Shown: piece by piece, positions 12,797-23,307 of the stretch | Numbering within the stretch: position 1 is the stretch's first letter | Layout: the number at the start of each line of letters is the position of its first letter | From: Dactylellina haptotyla | Lineage: Eukaryota > Ascomycota > Orbiliomycetes > Orbiliales > Orbiliaceae | Length of the DNA stretch: 64,000 nucleotides | NCBI GenBank assembly: GCA_031310005.1 | Contig: CM062382.1 | Coordinates: forward strand, 3,534,001 to 3,598,000 | Direction: 5' to 3' | Translations under genes and position numbers: made by a program | The notes under the pieces: generated by a model | The model's database searches: none | What the model was told of the DNA's origin: nothing | Seen by the model: the letters and a program-made list of their open reading frames with translations, nothing else

Positions 12797-13262
12797 TTAG
12801 GAACTGTAAAATTCAAGGGAAATATTTAAGAACCCGTTTTGTCATAAAGTAACGGGGATGGATAAAGGGAGGGAAAAGGGAGTTCAAAACGTACAGCAAC
12901 GCTAATTCCAAGTCGCCATGGATTCTAGCTTTCAGAGTAACCTCAATGTCGAGATTGAGGTCGAGTCTCAGTCTCAAAGTGTCTTTCTTTTGACCTCCTC
13001 CACCACCAGTTAATCCACCGGCAAGACCACTGACTGCACCGGTCGCTCCACTGAGCGTATCCGTGACTTGACCAGTGGCTTTTGAGACTTCATTTCCAAG
13101 TTCTGAAACCGGCTGGAGAGCTTGACCTGCACCTCCTTGTTGCTGTCTATTACGATTTCGGCGTGGGCCACGTCGTCTTGAGCGCGATCGGGAACGTCTG
13201 TCATCGTCGCTATAATCATCCTCAGATGGAACTGTGGTAGTCATATTTTTCTCTGAATCCAT
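12797..13262 (-). CDS. small disordered protein A ending in the IHGDL beta module
   Basis: Predicted 124 residues from exons 12895-13262 and 12797-12803, with a 91-base intron (GTACGT...TTTTACAG). The last exon is only 7 bases, adding one Ser after the module; if the intron is not used, the frame runs on for 26 residues. Order of parts: acidic start (PSEDDYSDDD), Arg/Ser-rich stretch (RRSRSRSRRRGPRRNRNR, 22-39), Gly/Ala-rich linker (VSGLAGGLTGGGGG), then the module at 95-123 (RLRLDLNLDIEV, LKARIHGDLELALL). The module alternates hydrophobic and charged residues and repeats in genes B and C. No known function; likely self-association or protein binding, by inference. Confidence 0.7.
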
Positions 13263-13982
13263 TTTCGGTAGCGGTCTCGATAAACGGTATCAAATTTAAT
13301 GGTAGATGTTGGATATACGAGGTCGTAAATTGTTTAATTGTTGTGAAAGGTTAAATTTTGCTTGCCAAACTTTCCAGCTGTGCCTGTATATAAGAGAGGG
13401 CACATATGTAGATATCGGATTTCTAAACGCTTGATACCTTGGTTGCTATACATGTCCTAGATTCTTTCGGCGCTATATAATATGCATAATCACGACGGTT
13501 CAACGTCATAGGGCTCTTGTATTAACGACGTCATGCTAGATATTTCACGTCATGAGGGCACCGTATGGTGCTCTGATGCTTTTTTTTGAGGCGATATCCT
13601 TGCGATAGACTGCAAAATTTTTGCAGAAGGTGTGTCGCTGCAAATCCTCAAGATCTTCCAGGGTGAACGCCAGGGTACGCTGAAATATCTATTTGTATCT
13701 CAAAATGTGCAGGCCACGAGTTGTAACAGTGAAATTCTTTTTTCCTGCCCCTTTCTTTCTCATCTTTCTTTTTTCCAAAAAGAATTTACGTCAGAAACCA
13801 GGTTGTGGCTGGAGTGGGGTATAGCACAGCTAATATAGCCATCCATCTCTGACCTGTTGTTCTGATTTGTGGTGATGATCCCAGTGTCGGCTATTGTTGC
13901 CGAAACATTGTGGGGCTGCGGGCATGCGACGACCCAGCATTAAATGCTGAAAATGATATCACTGAACAGTTACTTATCGCCC
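13263..13982. other. intergenic region between divergent genes A and X
   Basis: Shared upstream region of gene A (leftward) and gene X (rightward). A plus-strand TATATAAG lies near 13388. Several pyrimidine-rich stretches; no gene recognised. Confidence 0.5.
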
Positions 13983-14033
13983 ATGAACAATCTTTTGCTT
14001 GTTCCATCGCCATAGTTACCCATGAGTCCATAG
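13983..14033 (+). promoter_or_regulatory. two small uORFs before gene X
   Basis: uORF1 at 13983-14015 encodes MNNLLLVPSP and stops. uORF2 at 14022-14033 is ATG AGT CCA TAG (MSP, stop), six bases before the main ATG at 14040. Such short spacing normally makes re-initiation poor, so translation of gene X is probably reduced or conditional, if transcription starts upstream of these ATGs. That is inference; the transcript start is not known. Confidence 0.55.
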
Positions 14034-14045
14034 TTACCCATGAGT
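14010..14045 (+). repeat. 18-base perfect tandem duplication spanning the start codon of gene X
   Basis: The unit CCATAGTTACCCATGAGT occurs twice, at 14010-14027 and 14028-14045. Each copy carries an ATG-AGT. The second supplies the main start; the first now makes a three-codon uORF ending in TAG. Confidence 0.9.
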
Positions 14046-14704
14046 AGTAGTTCTCATAGTAATTTGATAGTTTCAACGGCTACATCTACCTCCACCGATA
14101 TGGATACCCTCGGGCTTCTCATCATATCATCGATACCAACAGTGATCGGCGTTACGCAGGCTTTAAGATACAAAGAGCAGGCAGCAGAGCAAGAAAAACA
14201 GGGTCCCAAATGGTTTAACCTTGTTTGTGTATCGGAAGATACTGCCAGCCAGTTTTACGGCGCGAAGATTGTTTTATTGGACAAGCAGGTTTGTGGCTTG
14301 AAAGTTCGAATATTTTTGACTTGGGATCTAGACTGATACAATGCTGTGCCTAGCTGTTAATCGACACACACGCTGAAACGAAGGGATTTCTTTTCAAAGG
14401 GTTATTCCACGATTACTTAGGAACAGATATTACCGGGCTGGTTTCGTATATAGATTCAGACCCTCCTGCGCTAAACTGGATATATGTCGAAAATGAAGAA
14501 GTGAAATACGGCACGGGGTCAGAGTCAAAAGGGGAGGGCAAAAAGGTCGGGCCTTGGAGTTATAAGGGTGGATTACAACTCCAAGATCAAGCGCTATTTT
14601 ACGTTGGTGCAGAACTCGGAGATGGAAAGTGGGAGTTGAGATATGGTGAAAACGGGAAGAAAGAAGGCTTGAAAATTTCAATGGCGACTGTTAGCGAGTC
14701 TTAA
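14040..14704 (+). CDS. unrecognised 199-residue protein X with N-terminal hydrophobic segment
   Basis: Two exons, 14040-14288 and 14354-14704, with a 65-base phase-0 intron (GTTTGT...CCTAG); 199 residues. A Ser/Thr-rich start is followed by a hydrophobic segment at about 22-41 (MDTLGLLIISSIPTVIGVTQ), which could be a membrane or amphipathic helix, and then a charged stretch (YKEQAAEQEKQ). The rest looks like a compact beta-rich domain, with VENEEVKYG, GPWSYKGGLQLQDQALFYVG and WELRYGENGKKEGLK. A second in-frame ATG at 14100 would begin at MDTLGLL. The family is not recognised. It sits between genes A and the DUF6987 gene. Confidence 0.7.
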
Positions 14705-15027
14705 GACGATTTAATCCGTACTATAGATACTAATTCATTTTTATTCTGCTTATTATCGACTTTATCTCAAGAGTGCGAATAATTTCTCCAAGATCATGGT
14801 GGACAACGCGCGACGCGATCAAATTATATCCGTTTGCATAAATTTTTAATAATACAGGAGCCACTAAATTCCATTGAAAAAATATGAACCAAAATAAACA
14901 AGATAAATTCATAAATTCATAAAAAAAAAAGACACCAAATAAAAGAGTTAAATTGCTTGCTGTTCACACTCAACTTGTAAACCCAAAGGAGCAGCTAGTA
15001 GGAAGATCATGAGTGAACTATCTTGAT
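14705..15027. other. convergent spacer
   Basis: 3' flanks of gene X and the DUF6987 gene. AT-rich; nothing recognised. Confidence 0.5.
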
Positions 15028-15840
15028 TTACTTTTTCTTCCCTCCGACGGTATATCCCATAGCGCCGAGAAGCTTGTCGATGCGTAGACCTTGAAGAACT
15101 TGCGTCAAAGCTCCTCCTAGTCCAAGTGCGTTTAGAATATTCGCCAGGAGGTTCAAGACGCCAGCAACCAGTAAACCAACAGCACCTAGAATCTGTAGAA
15201 GTGGTTCGGACAACATGCTGAACAAGGGTCCAAGCTCTTGCTTTGCCTTCGGCATTCCTTCAATTGCCTTGCGACCCTTATCGATGGTTGCTTGAACGCG
15301 AGTGCTCAATTCATTGCACCCGTCGATGACTAGCTTCTCATCACTAGATGCCTGAGCGTCTTCAACATGGCGCTTTGCAAGACGTTCAAATTTGTTGTCT
15401 GGATCAAGAGCCTTGATTTGGTCCAAGGTAGATTGCATAACGGAGTGGGCGTTCTCGATCAAGGGCTTCATCTTGCTAACGAAGGCATCTTCGTCTAGCT
15501 CTGAGTTCTCCTTTTTCTTCTCAGCCTCGTCGATTGTCTGGTCGATCATGTCCAAGAGAGGTTTGACTTTGTCAAGCCCCTTATCGACAATGTGGGCCAT
15601 ACGCTTCATGACCTTTTCGCGCTCTTCCTCATCGGTAAGCTTCTGCTTTTCTTCGTCCGTAAGCTCTTTCACTTCCTCTTCTGACAATTTGTCTTTCGTC
15701 TCCGGGGCTTCACCCGAAGCGCTCTTGCCGCCAAAGTCAGATCCTGCTTTGGACGACATTGCTTGAGGCTCGAGTACGTTGAGCTGCTCAATCTCGGACC
15801 CACGTTCCGGAAGGTCTGGGCGTTGAACTGCGGTACTCAT
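15028..15840 (-). CDS. DUF6987 / fungal LEA-type protein
   Basis: 270 residues from the ATG at 15840. The frame stays open upstream to about 16200; an ATG at 16065 would add 75 residues, part of which (PSSPPPEEINYSISTDSS) looks protein-like, so the start or a 5' exon is uncertain. The N-terminal 65 residues are disordered and acidic. A Lys/Glu-rich helical middle follows, with DKVKPLLDMIDQTIDEA and a second similar block. The hydrophobic Gly/Leu C-terminus (LFSMLSEPLLQILGAVGLL ... NALGLGGALTQVLQGL) ends in GGKKK. This architecture matches the DUF6987 C-terminal domain of ascomycete LEA-domain proteins, as I know that family. Membrane association or stress protection is plausible but unproven. 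Confidence 0.75.
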   Translation of the reverse strand: MSTAVQRPDLPERGSEIEQLNVLEPQAMSSKAGSDFGGKSASGEAPETKDKLSEEEVKELTDEEKQKLTDEEEREKVMKRMAHIVDKGLDKVKPLLDMIDQTIDEAEKKKENSELDEDAFVSKMKPLIENAHSVMQSTLDQIKALDPDNKFERLAKRHVEDAQASSDEKLVIDGCNELSTRVQATIDKGRKAIEGMPKAKQELGPLFSMLSEPLLQILGAVGLLVAGVLNLLANILNALGLGGALTQVLQGLRIDKLLGAMGYTVGGKKK

Positions 15841-17380
15841 AATGTCGGATGAAGACTCTGAGGATTGATATCTTGATTTAGATTGTCTTGGAGTTGAGGA
15901 GTCTGTGGAAATAGAATAATTTATCTCTTCGGGAGGAGGAGATGATGGTGCTGTTTGGAATTGAATTGGGGTGGATATTTCGTCTGCCGTGTTTGCGGGT
16001 GCTATATTTGACTTATATTGAAAAAATATTAATTTTGATAATAATAATTTGATTCCATTGAACATTGCGCCTTGATCCCCTATGGTTTTATAGACGTGGC
16101 TTGACAAGAGACTAGATGCCCAGAAAGCCTTAAGACCAATCAATACGGTTCTAGATAACAAGATACTGAAAATTTTAGGGCGCAATGCAAAATTTTCCAC
16201 TATCTTTCTTTCCAGGATGGATTTTCATCATAATGACATGATCCCCATGACTATAACTTCGATCTCACTCGTTCGGTAGACCCCGATTGATAGAGGCTTT
16301 TTGGCGAGTAGTATCCCAGCGCCACTTTCACCCCGCAGTCAGGGGGGAGATAATCCGATGTGCATAACCGTGACGTGAGGCGTACGTTATTTGAAGGATT
16401 CTATTATCTGTGGCTTCTGGCCACTGCCTGCAGTTATCCTACTAGCCGCAATACAAGATATTGGAGGCGACGTGATATTGAAACGTCATTGCCTGGCCTG
16501 AGGCGAGAATCGAGAATTCCTTGGTTGATCTGTCTGCGTGTAAGCTGTTGAATAGCTTGTTTTTTGATAGACGAGGTACCCGCTTCCTCGCTAGAATAAT
16601 TTTCTGGAAAACCCAGCTCAAGGTTTTCATGATAATCATCTATCAAAAATTCGTGAGAACCTGCGGAAGCATTCACTCCACACTATAGCGCTAGCGAATG
16701 CGCTTTCCAACTTTCCCGGCAACGCCTCCGTAGCATCCCGATTGCACGCAGATCAGGGAGGTACTAGCCACTGCACAGTCGCAGTGGTACAAAGGAACCT
16801 GCGTTTGTACGTTTGCTGTTTCTATGAAGCTAATTGCAGCTATACACCGAAGGCTGATCAGGAAAGATTACACGAGACGGGTGATCTTGTGTTGCCACAG
16901 CGCAGTGGCGCCAGCTGCACATCCTGGCTGTCTGTGCGTCACCTTGCAAGTGAACATCTCGCCTGGAAGCTCCACTTGATCCAGCATGCATCAAAAACCT
17001 CAATGATCCTGAAGGCGGACGTCATAAGACGTTGTTTCATATTATATTTGGGACGGGCCGAAAAAACAAAATAAAAATTTTTGATGCCCGGGTTTATATT
17101 TCCAAGATCAAGAATATGATTGTCGTTATTGATGTCAACAGATGTTGAAGATATAATAGCTTTTCTATGTAACATCAGATCCGTGATGTCACAGCACGAG
17201 TGCATCCGCGATGAGGAACGATAGCCCGTCTCCAGACTTGCAATAAAAATGTGTTACAAGTGTCAAATAGTAAATATCTCTGTTCAGAAGTAATAAAACT
17301 CAAGTTGGTACGTACAATAGACCAGTTATTTCTAAATTTCTTCCTGAACACCTTTTTACACGCACAATTTCTTCACGAAG
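15841..17380. other. divergent intergenic region
   Basis: Upstream region of the DUF6987 gene (possibly including its 5' exon, 15841-16065) and of gene B. The rest (16.2-17.3 kb) shows short ORFs without a domain. Confidence 0.5.
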
Positions 17381-18181
17381 ATGGAAACAAAAACTCAAAA
17401 AGAAGAGGAGTGGGAAGGCCCCCATTTAGAGTCAGAGTCGGAAAATCCTGAGCCTCCAGCATCCAGCGAGATACAAGATACCGGTGACGCGAACGAGCGT
17501 GAAAGCCTCCAAGGCGACGAAGACGACATAGTTTCTTCTAAAAAAGAAGAAGTGCCAGAGGAACCACCAGCAAAACCAGCTGAGGAACCAGCCCAAGTTA
17601 CTCCCAAATCTCGGTCTAGCTCGCGTACTAGGAGTAAATCGAGGCGTGCGTCAAGTCAAAGGCCCATTGGAAGCCGCAGCAACTCAAACATGAGCACAGA
17701 TAGAAAGGAAGCTCCGACGGAGACAGCTAGTCCGAAACCACAGAAATCGCAGCCTCTACCGTCAGTATACGAAGACAAAGATGCCACCAGTAACAACGGT
17801 CAGCTTGTAAAGCGAAATCGGCGTAGAAATAAAAAGTCGGGATATGAGTCTTCTTCCACAGAAGATATGCCTCTCAGAGAGCGACGACAACCTCCTCAAC
17901 AAATGCAAATGCAACCGGCACCGCAGATGCAAATGCAACCACCAAAGAAGAACGATCCTATGAAGCTACGCCTGGACTTGAATCTAGAGATTGAAGTAGA
18001 ATTGAAGGCACGGATCCACGGAGATCTCACCCTAGCTCTTTTGTAAGTTACGACCCCTCGCAAATCAAATTTCCTTAGCATCACTTTCTTCATCCACAGA
18101 GCTCTTAAACGGGCAATGAGGGAAAAGACGGCTGCTAACTTTGTTACTTCCTACCCTTTAACTATTCAGGTCTTGAACTAA
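17381..18181 (+). CDS. disordered protein B with the IHGDL beta module
   Basis: Exons 17381-18042 and 18100-18181, 57-base intron (GTAAGT...CCACAG); 247 residues. The start (1-75) is very acidic and Glu/Pro-rich. Ser/Arg-rich stretches follow (SRSSSRTRSKSRRASS, about 77-92; NRRRNKK, 146-152), then a Gln/Met repeat (QQMQMQP/PQMQMQP) and the module at 194-221 (KLRLDLNLEIEV, LKARIHGDLTLALL). The intron interrupts the module's last Leu codon, at the same position and phase (2) as in gene A. After the module comes a 26-residue basic tail. Paralogous to A in order of parts (SR-rich, linker, module). No catalytic motif; function unknown. Confidence 0.75.
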
Positions 18182-19332
18182 TCGCCCTTATTTGGTTGTG
18201 GCTGTATAGTTCTTAAGTACTTTAAAGTTGTGTCCAATAGACATCTGATTTGAGAATGGAGCAGATGAGGGGAAGATGAAAATTCTCTATGAATGATACA
18301 GGGGCTGAGAGCGTTGTTCACTATTTTCTTTTGCTGCCTTTTTTTCCTATCGGTTAATTTTTCCTTGTCAGCGACATTAAGAAGGAAGCGCAGTTGTTGT
18401 AGTTAGCTTGTAATCTAAGTTTGAACTAGTTCTATATTAAGCTTGTTGCGTTTAGTTAGTCTTTGCCCAGAACCCTTTTTTATCTAACCGTTCTTCCCGT
18501 AATCAAAAGATCAGTTTGTGAATTCAGCTTAAACCCGAGGAGCCAAGCTACCTTCCTGTGTCGCTACAGAGATTTCGAAGAACCTCTGTGCGGATTCAAA
18601 CGGTGAATGATTCGGATGAGGGGAGCCGAGAGCATGCCCAAGTCCAGGAGTCCCATTGATGATGTCACATCACAGCTGCGGAGTATTCCAAGCGTGCACG
18701 GTTCACGGGATAGGTTGAAACTTGGGAAACTCGGTTTTGTGATAAACTTGGCAACGGTTCAGGCTGATCAGCTCAACCCATGTGTTCTCCATAATTGGAT
18801 TGGCTCTTGAGATTTTTCACAGGGATGTTGATGTTCCACAGTGGGGACGGCACGGCAGCAGTTGTCTCTATTCTGCAGGCGCATGTACCATTCGGTCGCA
18901 GGTCTCTGTGAGGAATCACGCGCAATAATATTGTAAAGAAAGATCGATGTCTTTCGCTGGTTCTTATGCATAATATCATATTATAATATATTATTACTTG
19001 AGAATATTGAGATTTTTAATAGTCTTGAAAAGACAGTGTTCTTGTCAGAACATATAAGACCTTTCTCTCATGCCAGCTCGAAATTGCTCCTTTTTCCAGC
19101 TGACTCCGTAGACTTGCACGTTCTTTTTTGTTATGCTGAGGAGCTTCAGAGTTACTGTGAGGGTACCGAGGGTACCTAACTAGATCGCGAACGAAACACG
19201 GCGCCAATCTGCCCAGCCTGCTACATTTAAGCCTTTCCACTTGGTCGGTACCCGCACTTTGGAGAAAAGTGTTGCGAAACCCTTCCTTCCTCGACGACGG
19301 CCGAGCGCCCGCATGCAAACTCGCGGGTTTCC
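18182..19332. other. intergenic spacer, nothing recognised
   Basis: Between genes B and C. Short ORFs only. An AT-rich stretch lies near 18965-19000, and the GC content rises from about 19.15 kb into gene C. Confidence 0.5.
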
Positions 19333-19926
19333 ATGCCTGGCGACAAAGCTCTGGCCATCCACGATGCCGCCAGGCCGACCGAACTAGACGTACACGAGCC
19401 ACAATGTTCGTCGCCATTGGGCGACTGCGATATCACACGGTTGTATCTCCTCGATGCTGGCTCGATACGGAACTACGGCGCGCTGGTGGAACAGCTGCTT
19501 GAGGACCATCAGCGGCCCCAAAGGACGAAAGTCCACATGGATGTTAACCTCAGCGTTGACCTGGATTTGACCCCGGAGGTCTACGGCGACCTTCATCTCT
19601 CGATGCTCTGCGTTACAGTCAAGAGGAAGCCCTGGGAAGAAGACGTAATCGGAAGGGACGGTCGGAGAATAGCCGGAACAGTATTACGGATAGCAGACGG
19701 CCGCGGGGCGCTGATTCACCATCAGGTTGTCGGGTTCGAGAGCTTTGGCGAGTGGTGGTGGGTTGCTTCGGTGCAGCTCCGCGAGCTGGCACGACACAAG
19801 CTGCGGAGCGGGCTCGGGCGACTGAAAGAGTTCGTCGAAAGAATTGGGGTCCCGATTCTGGCTATGATTCTGGCTCTCCCAACGGCCATCTTACTCCTCT
19901 GCTTTTGGCGTCTCTGTCGAGGCTAA
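19333..19926 (+). CDS. protein C, divergent copy of the IHGDL-module family with C-terminal membrane segment
   Basis: Single open frame of 197 residues. Positions 65-92 (TKVHMDVNLSVDLDL, PEVYGDLHLSML) align without gaps to the module of A and B: the alternating pattern and the GDLxL turn are kept, with IH replaced by VY. Unlike A and B, the protein continues past the module for about 105 residues and ends in a hydrophobic helix (IGVPILAMILALPTAILLL) with a short basic tail, suggesting a membrane-anchored form. GC content is higher than in its neighbours. Other frames also stay open in the 3' half, so the part after the module is less certain and an unrecognised intron is possible. Confidence 0.55.
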   Translation: MPGDKALAIHDAARPTELDVHEPQCSSPLGDCDITRLYLLDAGSIRNYGALVEQLLEDHQRPQRTKVHMDVNLSVDLDLTPEVYGDLHLSMLCVTVKRKPWEEDVIGRDGRRIAGTVLRIADGRGALIHHQVVGFESFGEWWWVASVQLRELARHKLRSGLGRLKEFVERIGVPILAMILALPTAILLLCFWRLCRG

Positions 19927-20203: not shown

Positions 20204-22303
20204 TTAATGCGTTAGATAATAGTCAACGGGATACCCTAACCATGCGCATTGTTCCAAATCCACATAACTACTCGCTTTTGCGGGATAATCAATAAGCAGG
20301 ATAGGCCCACTTTTCCCTCTTACTTCACTCCACCTCCCGCTGCCTTCTATTGATGCCAGACTCTTCTCGTAGCCTCGGACGGTGAGGTAGCGCGTTGGAA
20401 TATTTGGCGTGCCTTTTTTGATGAATTCTGCGAAATAGCCCGAGGATAACTGGATGGTATACAAGTCGTTCGCGTCTCTTAGTGTGCCCAGATTTCCGAA
20501 AACGTTAGGCATGTCCGAGCCGTGAACACGGTAGTATGGAAGATTGGGATTTCCATTTGGGTATCCTGGCTCCACTGCTGGGCCACCAAGGCCATTTGGA
20601 TCATAGCCGCTGTATGTGCGATCCATTTGGTAGTAATGCGCTGATTTGAATACTCCGGTCGCATCTCCGGCATATACAGTGGCTTGGTCGACACACCTGA
20701 ACTGGAGATCTGTCGCAATGCGGGACGTAACATTGAAGCTGTCCTTGGTGATGTCGCCCGTATTTGGAGCAGGGAACAAGCCGGAGTCGATAACGCTCTG
20801 GGCATTGGCAGCATTGATGTTCAGCCCGACTTGTAAGCCTTCAAGGAGACTTGTAACCGGGGTTTTTGGATACGTTGAGAAAGAAGCACCGTCATCTCGC
20901 GTAATTCCAAATATAATATCAACGTTGGCTACCGACCCACCGTACTTCTTCGCAACATCCAGAAGGGGAGTGTTAACATAGAAGCCATCTTGTACTACGT
21001 AGCGAGCAACCGTGCTGGCTGTCACTATGGCAAGGGGGTCTTTGGTTTCGAGACAAGCAATTTGTTCGTCGAGAGATGCTTGTGTGCAACCAAGAGCGCT
21101 GAAAATTTGCTGACCTGCGATGTTATAAGAGCCCTGAATAGTAAGGTAGTCGCTGTAAGTATTGGCATAACTGTAACCAATGCCTAACGCGTAACCGAAC
21201 CCGAGATTTGACATTGATATAGCACCTTGGAATAAATCAATCGCTGGAGGGGATCCGAGCAAAACTCGAGTAGAGCCACCTCCTGCTGACTCGCCATTTA
21301 TAACAATACGAGTTGGATCTCCTCCAAAGGCGACGATATTATCTATCGTCCACTTCAAGGCCGCAACCATATCGCTTATGGCATAGTTCCCTTTGATATC
21401 CGTTCCGGGTATTGCAAGGAACCCAAGAGTTGACAGACGATAGTTTATATTGACTGTAACAACATCTTCACGGGATGCCAAGTTTCCTCCATCGCTACCA
21501 GGATCATTACCGGTACCCCCTGTGAATCCGCCACCGTGGATCCAAAAGTGTACGGCGCGGAGTCTCTCCGTCGAACCTGCTTTCGGGATATATGGTGTTT
21601 GGATATTGAGAATCAAGCAATCCTCACTCGTAGCACCGGCAGCTTGGTAGGGCTGGGAGCATTGCTTCGCATATTTTGTAGCATCAACTGTAACGCCACT
21701 AGGTGCGGAAGGATATGTTGAATATTTGAATCTGCCGGGAAAGGTAACATATGGGATTCCAAGAAATCGAAAGCTCTTTTGGTTTCGATATCCCACAAAC
21801 GTGTTTGTACCGCTGGCTACGGTGACCTTATTGGAATCAGTTGCAGCGGCATACACGCTGTTGCTATTCGAAGACTGAGAACAAAGGACCGGTAATGCTA
21901 TATCGCGGCTTGGCTGGGCTACCATTTGGAGAGAGCCGGGATCTTGAGACGCAGACACTACCCCGCTTGCAATGTAGTACCGCTGGACCGGCTTTGATTT
22001 CCCGATGAAAGATTGATAAGCTAACTGCCGCTCAAAATCGTATCGATTGTTGTTGAGGGTACTCCAAGAGATTAAGGATTCACCAATGGCTGCACAGGCT
22101 GATGCAGCTTGAACATATGGCATCTCGTCCAAAAGGATAGCGCCCACATGGTTGGTATCGTCGGTAGCATTGAGGTTGTTCTGATAGAGCAAAGTCAAGG
22201 ACGTTCCTTCGTTCGTAATGGATCTTTTGGGCAATGGGTTAGCGGCAACATTGCTAAACAGTGCCGCTACCGCGGCCACTGTTACCGGAATTGTTGGAAT
22301 CAT
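20204..22303 (-). CDS. secreted type-B carboxylesterase/lipase
   Basis: Intronless alpha/beta-hydrolase, 699 residues from the ATG at 22303; an earlier ATG at 22375 would add 24 residues. The later start is preferred because it begins a signal peptide (MIPTIPVTVAAVAALFSNVAA) and a TATA box lies at 22404-22411, which puts the transcript start near 22375. An N-terminal region of about 150 residues precedes the esterase fold. Family marks: EDCLILN (227), oxyanion HGGGF (256-260), nucleophile elbow GESAGG with Ser339, TRDDG with Asp471 where most members have Glu, and HGSDMPNVFG with His594. It hydrolyses esters outside the cell; the substrate is unknown. Confidence 0.9.
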   Translation of the reverse strand: MIPTIPVTVAAVAALFSNVAANPLPKRSITNEGTSLTLLYQNNLNATDDTNHVGAILLDEMPYVQAASACAAIGESLISWSTLNNNRYDFERQLAYQSFIGKSKPVQRYYIASGVVSASQDPGSLQMVAQPSRDIALPVLCSQSSNSNSVYAAATDSNKVTVASGTNTFVGYRNQKSFRFLGIPYVTFPGRFKYSTYPSAPSGVTVDATKYAKQCSQPYQAAGATSEDCLILNIQTPYIPKAGSTERLRAVHFWIHGGGFTGGTGNDPGSDGGNLASREDVVTVNINYRLSTLGFLAIPGTDIKGNYAISDMVAALKWTIDNIVAFGGDPTRIVINGESAGGGSTRVLLGSPPAIDLFQGAISMSNLGFGYALGIGYSYANTYSDYLTIQGSYNIAGQQIFSALGCTQASLDEQIACLETKDPLAIVTASTVARYVVQDGFYVNTPLLDVAKKYGGSVANVDIIFGITRDDGASFSTYPKTPVTSLLEGLQVGLNINAANAQSVIDSGLFPAPNTGDITKDSFNVTSRIATDLQFRCVDQATVYAGDATGVFKSAHYYQMDRTYSGYDPNGLGGPAVEPGYPNGNPNLPYYRVHGSDMPNVFGNLGTLRDANDLYTIQLSSGYFAEFIKKGTPNIPTRYLTVRGYEKSLASIEGSGRWSEVRGKSGPILLIDYPAKASSYVDLEQCAWLGYPVDYYLTH

Positions 22304-22403
22304 ATCTGATATCGCCGGTGTAGGTGTCGCAAATGACAACCTTCCAAATGATATGGGGTCGGAGAGGAGTGACATCTTGGAATTGGCGTTCCAGCTATAC
22401 GCC

Positions 22404-22411
22404 CTTTTATA
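22404..22411 (-). promoter_or_regulatory. TATA box of the carboxylesterase gene
   Basis: TATAAAAG on the minus strand, about 100 bases before the preferred ATG at 22303. Confidence 0.6.
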
Positions 22412-23307
22412 ATAACCGCAATATGGCCAATAGCTCTTGTGATAATTCGAATGCGTATATTCAATAAGTCATCGGTCTCTGGCAAAAAGATGAAATTAAT
22501 TGACATTGCGATCCAATTTTCGGCTAAATTACGTATCCTGAGCGCGACTTCGAAGCTTGTTCGAAGGGATCGTCGATATCACACGCGTGTGCCATGGGGC
22601 TGGATAAATGAATACCCGGATCTAGATATATTATTTGCAGCTGGCCAGCTGGATCTCGGTGCCGGATCATCGACTTGTATACTTTTTATGTCTTTCGCAT
22701 GGGTGTTGGATTTTTAAAACGGCAGAAACTCCAGGAAGTGTGGGGTTTTAGGCCCGACCGGAACCTGGAAATATGCTTATCGGCAGTAACCCATTTAGCC
22801 GCCACGACGCAGGGACGGATAATGAAGCGTCCAAGAATTGAGTTTTCGGCGCCTTGAAGAATAACTAGAGCAGATTGGTGTTCTCTATTTGTAGGCTAAT
22901 TTTGGGTTCTTTTGGTGATGGCGTAACTCTTGTCACGGATCAAAGGAGGATTTTGCGGATTTATTTGATTGAAATTGCATCTCTTTGTTACTATTTATCC
23001 AACCTCGAGCGTCCAAAGTGGAACCCGGTATCTCGGAAGGCTAAACACTTCAGCGAAAGCAATTCATAGAAACTTAAACATTAAGGGTTCCCGGAACCAA
23101 TTCTCGGTAACAACTAACAAGCAAATGCCGGAAGCTTTGGAATTACTAATCATAATGAAAAAATGGGTTAGGAAGTGGAATTTCCTCCATCAAATATACG
23201 TAGAGTATTTAGGCAATAAAACTACTCTGGACGAAGCATACTAAGAAGTGGAATATCGCACTTTCCTATAGATCTAGATCTACACTATAACAATCCACTT
23301 TCCCGGT
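22412..23307. other. intergenic spacer, nothing recognised
   Basis: Upstream of the carboxylesterase and downstream of the permease. A 14-base palindrome TAGATCTAGATCTA lies near 23268. No gene seen. Confidence 0.5.

Follow-up and report, generated by a model that had tools for sequence, protein, structure and literature searches.

Three of five neighbouring genes of Dactylellina haptotyla, a nematode-trapping fungus (Orbiliomycetes, Pezizomycotina), share a 27-residue protein module that aligns without gaps, and this module is an almost invariant tail of disordered-looking proteins (so judged by composition) in many Pezizomycotina. As an observation it is sound: the module is uncharacterised, strongly conserved and located in a conserved gene cluster. 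Our tentative reading, to which we give a probability of about 0.38, is that the module folds as an amphipathic beta-hairpin at the C-terminus and serves as an assembly tag at a membrane or lipid surface. New here are a predicted amphipathic helix before the module in A-type proteins, a hydrophobic helix plus a predicted beta-trefoil-like domain in the neighbour X, and module charges that are nearly fixed except at positions 13 and 23. A near-invariant 27-residue tail on fast-changing, disordered-looking proteins points to a strong common constraint. Should the module prove to be an assembly tag, many fungal proteins now called hypothetical would gain, as a class, one testable function and a conserved candidate partner set.

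Within the window, the whole stretch of 64,000 nucleotides analysed, the five genes lie within 7.1 kb in the order A (-), X (+), DUF6987 (-), B (+), C (+):

12797..13262, minus strand: gene A, 124 residues, intron 12804-12894; from N- to C-terminus an Arg/Ser-rich N-terminus, predicted amphipathic helix, Gly linker and C-terminal module; Orbiliomycete relatives P0125, P0128 and P0133
12895..12974, minus strand: module of A, codon 27 finished by base 12803
13008..13121, minus strand: predicted amphipathic alpha-helix of A, residues 48-85, by helical moment
13263..14099, no strand: divergent A/X intergenic region, upstream of both genes
14100..14704, plus strand: gene X, predicted hydrophobic N-terminal helix and beta-trefoil-like domain, intron 14289-14353
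15028..15840, minus strand: DUF6987 protein, 270 residues, hydrophobic stretch close to the C-terminus
15841..17380, no strand: divergent DUF6987/B intergenic region, upstream of both genes
17381..18108, plus strand (end probable): gene B, 222 residues, disordered-looking, C-terminal module, intron 18043-18101
17963..18042, plus strand: module of B, codon 27 finished by base 18102
19333..19926, plus strand: gene C, 197 residues, no intron seen; diverged module internal, predicted membrane helix C-terminal
19528..19608, plus strand: module of C, residues 66-92
19849..19920, plus strand: predicted membrane helix of C, residues 173-196, by hydropathy and model

The module occupies residues 97-123 of 124 in A and 195-221 of 222 in B, the C-terminal position given for both in the preliminary description, and the intron it placed at one codon and phase in both genes was found to fall, in phase 2, within the last codon of the module. 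Its span for B, 17.4-18.2 kb, stands at the start but probably not at the end. B has a tandem AG acceptor (18098-18102, two bases apart) that decides between module tails of 1 versus 25 residues more: the first AG adds 25 residues, whereas use of the second reproduces the C-terminus seen in P0001 and P0002, the closest relatives, so that B probably ends in LTLALFS and a stop at 18108. Unspliced B has a stop codon directly after the module. The A/X intergenic region contains four TGACGT/ACGTCA words (CRE half-site; 13503, 13528, 13547 and 13788), the highest count of any equal-length stretch in the window for a word picked post hoc as one of seven tried; the three in the DUF6987/B region (16371, 16483 and 17019) are not unusual (43/625 windows). 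Stress and heat-shock promoter words showed no clear enrichment. A carboxylesterase-family frame (20204-22468, minus strand) adjoins C.

The gapless sharing of the module by A, B and C was borne out by an HMM built from 89 relatives with all window sequences excluded, which ranked the three at the top of 2004 window frames (B 7.6e-19, A 7.3e-17, C 0.0042; next frame 0.12). The A module is identical to that of spliced B at 22/27 positions and to that of unspliced B at 23/27. Between the unspliced A and B module DNAs 33/81 bases differ, and 19 of the 23 identical residues use different codons; thus the protein level is what is kept. Among the best-scoring candidates, searches of the organism's own genome with module queries returned A and B only, and those with C queries returned C and then B as the sole other match. 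No fourth copy was found among the best-scoring candidates in its 39.8 Mb (11 contigs), where a highly diverged copy could escape, and the module copies found (A, B and C) all lie within 7.1 kb.

C is a diverged member of the group with a predicted membrane helix, much as first described. Its module is identical to that of A at 9/27 positions, to spliced B at 9/27 and to unspliced B at 10/27. Kyte-Doolittle hydropathy reaches its maximum of 2.59 at residues 173-191, the AlphaFold2 model places a helix at 173-196, and a hydrophobic C-terminal stretch is present in C and in all seven relatives tested of the 16 listed; C is 96% identical to H072_8316 of D. haptotyla CBS 200.50. Its low identity and different context would also suit convergence between short alternating strands, with only A and B homologous. 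We regard this as quite improbable, since N7, L8, L14, G20, D21, L22 and L24 are common to all three modules, C scores 65 in ungapped BLOSUM62 comparison with B (best for different frames: 128, 110, 65, then 29 as the background maximum) and ranks third among the 2004 frames, it adjoins B as the next gene, and B was the sole other match of the C searches above.

In line with the preliminary description, which knew of no named domain for the module, A, B, C and X matched no Pfam family at E ≤ 1, and six of seven relatives scanned had no Pfam match, the seventh (P0001) giving one sub-cutoff phage-portal match at 0.13. Among solved structures, a profile search turned up nothing related to the module at E ≤ 10. 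Two solved-structure matches to the C profile (best 0.00046; chain Ika8, 21 residues, no stretch passing alone) were judged to be chance. Literature text searches by module strings, gene tags and related topics returned no recognised description of the module among the papers listed.

A search with the B module gathered 90 proteins, 90/90 with the module. The best 120 of 294 matches to a joined A+C+X query added 118 new proteins, of which, among the matches listed, 91 carry an A/B-type module and the rest, by alignment, are 16 relatives of C and 11 of X only. The resulting 181 module proteins, among the matches listed, come from length-limited searches that left long proteins out, and the searches gather sequences with exact shared five-letter words, so that conservation is overestimated. 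Named sources include Orbilia, Aspergillus, Penicillium, Xylaria, Neurospora, Trichoderma and Tirmania, all of which we take to be Pezizomycotina. The idea of an assembly system private to this locus is therefore not upheld: the module marks the C-terminus in many Pezizomycotina. The A module shares 24/27 residues with a Trichoderma reesei relative, and the B module 25/27 with a Penicillium form. The strict alternation of hydrophobic and charged residues also proved extreme: among 39,867 windows of 18 residues from 250 fetched proteins, no other stretch reached the moment of a B-like module at 170-180 degrees, and the five highest moments belong to C-type modules.

The module ends at most three residues from the C-terminus in 105/181 proteins among the matches listed. 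Of the 76 longer tails, 49 start with [YCW]V (43/62 A-type and 6/14 B-type, among the matches listed), a dipeptide pattern with a frequency of 0.29% across the fetched proteins. Such starts are what read-through at a donor site within the final codon would yield. Because such tails occur in both A-type and B-type proteins, the intron in the last module codon is probably old. One Xylaria protein (P0007) has 111 residues with a hydrophobic stretch after the module, and may thus be either another membrane-bound form or the product of a merged gene model.

The preliminary description had staked its reading on the neighbours being conserved together in related genomes, and in Orbiliomycetes this expectation held. 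Among the matches listed, 15 Orbiliomycete assemblies have at least two of the five families, and in 14/15 of these comparable assemblies parts of the A/X/DUF6987/B/C cluster occur together, gene order being judged by eye from the locus tags and contig values of listed relatives. Running tag numbers lie within four of each other in 11/15, e.g. in Orbilia javanica TWF718 (C 000338, B 000340, DUF6987 000341, X 000342) and Drechslerella dactyloides (C 6276, X 6279, A 6280). For D. cionopaga, D. cylindrospora and A. entomopaga the tags are not positional and contig values agree; O. oligospora ATCC 24927 is discordant, with A (AOL_s00173g45) and DUF6987 (AOL_s00088g53) carrying different scaffold names. 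The other assemblies have at most four of the five families among the matches listed, with A visible in 3/15. X and A are joined in a single chain in six proteins (P0118-P0123) from Verticillium, Monosporascus, Stylonectria and Phyllachora. These are likelier to be merged neighbouring gene models than real fusions, as P0122 has an internal start like that of A-type relatives. Since such chains occur outside the Orbiliomycetes, the A-X link seems to predate the class; the larger cluster was seen only within it, among the matches listed. Six Penicillium B-type models (P0014, P0015, P0030, P0036, P0055 and P0059) run on into a DUF2470 protein, which suggests a different conserved neighbour of B-type genes there.

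Both interleaved neighbours have hydrophobic segments. In X a hydrophobic N-terminal helix is predicted from sequence, and modelling suggests a folded all-beta, beta-trefoil-like domain; relatives of X are precomputed as PF28325 in the protein database. Thirteen solved-structure matches to the X profile (best 0.032) were judged to be chance. The interleaved DUF6987 gene, recognised as such at the outset, is a clear member of the PF22485 proteins (5.7e-61; 206.3 bits versus a cut-off of 26) and the only such match found in the genome; unlike A and B, DUF6987 proteins carry no A/B-type module among 42 listed relatives. A literature text search for 'DUF6987' found only an entry in a table of biofilm proteins, as far as the excerpted part of that paper goes (PMC12345193).

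A itself carries a predicted amphipathic helix of the lipid-binding type. Residues 48-85, limits chosen by eye, have a helical moment of 0.41, a value reached by 0/2000 shuffles. An amphipathic helix before the module, predicted at z > 2, was found in 87/102 A-type versus 1/77 B-type proteins among the matches listed (102 of 104 A-type proteins, two having too little upstream sequence). The suggestion that the locus encodes soluble and membrane-bound members fits this helix in A and the predicted helix in C.

Charge was analysed in 51 distinct modules from the 181 proteins among the matches listed. The pattern used in collecting them, which among the matches listed only C and X relatives fail, fixed positions 1, 3, 7, 11, 15, 21 and 25, so that constancy there is partly imposed; polar-face positions 5, 9, 13, 17, 19 and 23 were left free. 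Every one of the 51 modules has acidic residues at 5 and 9; position 17 is basic in 47/51 and 19 is His in 46/51. Frequent switching of charge class occurs only at 13 and 23, with 17 and 19 deviating in 4/51 and 5/51. Across the 351 position pairs, mutual information peaks at 13-23, where the two residues are never acidic together (31 E/T, 11 T/E, 6 Q/E, 3 T/T, 0 E/E), and this pair fits a hairpin of register i+j=36; its covariation largely tracks the A/B split, so few independent events lie behind it. The hydrophobic face comprises nine alternating residues plus 22, 24 and 26. By a crude pair count, antiparallel registers score best (i+j=12, +4.0; i+j=24, +3.75), hairpin registers score +1.0 (i+j=36) and +1.26 (i+j=38), and parallel in-register stacking, which places like charges on each other, is the worst of all registers tried (-8.9). 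The charge pattern thus fits an amphipathic hairpin making antiparallel contacts and speaks against a parallel in-register amyloid. Of the beta-arch or amyloid-like contact first proposed, the parallel in-register form is not supported, although a six-residue shift of the parallel stack brings its score to +3.37.

As we infer it, residues ~10-18 of the module would pair with residues 20-27 in register i+j=36 (K15-D21, 13-23, 14-22, 12-24 and 10-26), making one face wholly hydrophobic and the other charged. The first half of the long strand, left free by the hairpin, would lie antiparallel to that of another module (K1-E11, R3-E9), and through this half-strand pairing A, B and C would co-assemble. 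Either lipid or a second sheet would cover the hydrophobic face, with A held at the surface by its predicted amphipathic helix, C by its predicted transmembrane helix, and B recruited through the module alone. In support we count the alternation, the charges, the A-type helix, the hydrophobic stretches of C, X and DUF6987, the clustering of the copies and the kept neighbours; against it, the AlphaFold2 results, the weak i+j=36 score, the positive score of the shifted parallel stack and the few covariation events. In the AlphaFold2 model of P0121, an X-A fusion, the module has no secondary structure (pLDDT 31-35), and the model of C is poor (mean 52.2, module blocks 37-48) with strands at module positions 2-14 and 22-33; these monomer models confirmed neither the hairpin nor its contacts. 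The observation in the preliminary description is thus confirmed and its interpretation partly supported: assembly is plausible, and a parallel in-register amyloid unlikely. The more specific picture, in which an undescribed tag class widespread in Pezizomycotina joins helix-anchored A, membrane-spanning C and soluble, disordered B through complementary charges into a heterotypic membrane or lipid coat, X and DUF6987 acting as their partners, appears to us rather improbable.

Instead of touching one another, A, B and C could share or compete for one conserved partner on which the module docks as a beta-augmentation strand. Both module faces are conserved, as a specific binding site would demand, the module sits at the free end of disordered-looking A and B, and X, the nearest neighbour of A, is a predicted folded all-beta domain. 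However, the X-A fusion model gives no sign of docking on X, no partner was identified, and an unlinked one would leave the clustering of three copies unexplained. We hold docking to be doubtful.

Apolipoprotein B has amphipathic lipid-binding beta elements, and the module might likewise bind lipid only, without specific protein contacts. The wide hydrophobic face described above and the hydrophobic or amphipathic elements of the neighbours agree with this, but the nearly constant charge class of the polar face in 51 modules, His19 included, is not needed for plain lipid binding, and polar-face conservation in perilipin-4 has been tied to lateral contacts on lipid (excerpted text of PMC8064757). 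Lipid binding alone is therefore improbable.

A fungal amyloid signalling motif like that of HET-s, linking effector and receptor, is very unlikely: the module is short, C-terminal in A and B and common to nearby genes, its Gly-Asp pair recalls the G[DN] bigram of HRAMs (PMC9815663, in part), inter-rung salt bridges of HET-s (PMC5485727, in part) mean that charges alone leave stacking possible and the six-residue shift scores well, but A, B and C lack Pfam matches, the five cluster genes include no NLR or HeLo protein, and in-register stacking is the worst electrostatic register.

Compared with known systems, the module resembles the HRAM, PP and sigma motifs in being short, in nearby genes, C-terminal in one partner and of beta-forming pattern. 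It differs in having no receptor or HeLo partner in the cluster, in its near invariance across many Pezizomycotina and in charges that oppose parallel in-register stacking. No amyloid motif or effector profile, of those covered by Pfam, matched A, B or C at E ≤ 1; among the best candidates the genome copies are A, B and C, none an NLR, so that no module stands at an NLR N-terminus; and no NLR domain occurs in eight scanned window frames (DUF6987, B, C and five others) of the 20 of at least 230 residues. The proteins of the septal pore (SPA/SPP) are likewise disordered and many are specific to Pezizomycotina; their reported composition is rich in Arg and His and poor in Lys and Gly (PMC10023807, in part), whereas residues 1-96 of A are Gly-rich without His and residues 1-194 of B have equal Lys and Arg. 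Perilipin-type helices share with A a weakly hydrophobic, Gly/Thr/Val-rich stretch of near 100-degree periodicity, and polar-face conservation may point to lateral contacts; by helical moment A falls with lipid-surface amphipathic helices (putative lipid binding). The stretch in A differs in its length of ~38 residues and its added beta module, and no perilipin domain profile matched A in Pfam at E ≤ 1. Although neither kind of profile matched, the closest working analogies are the amyloid motifs of fungi and the helix coat formed by perilipin-4.
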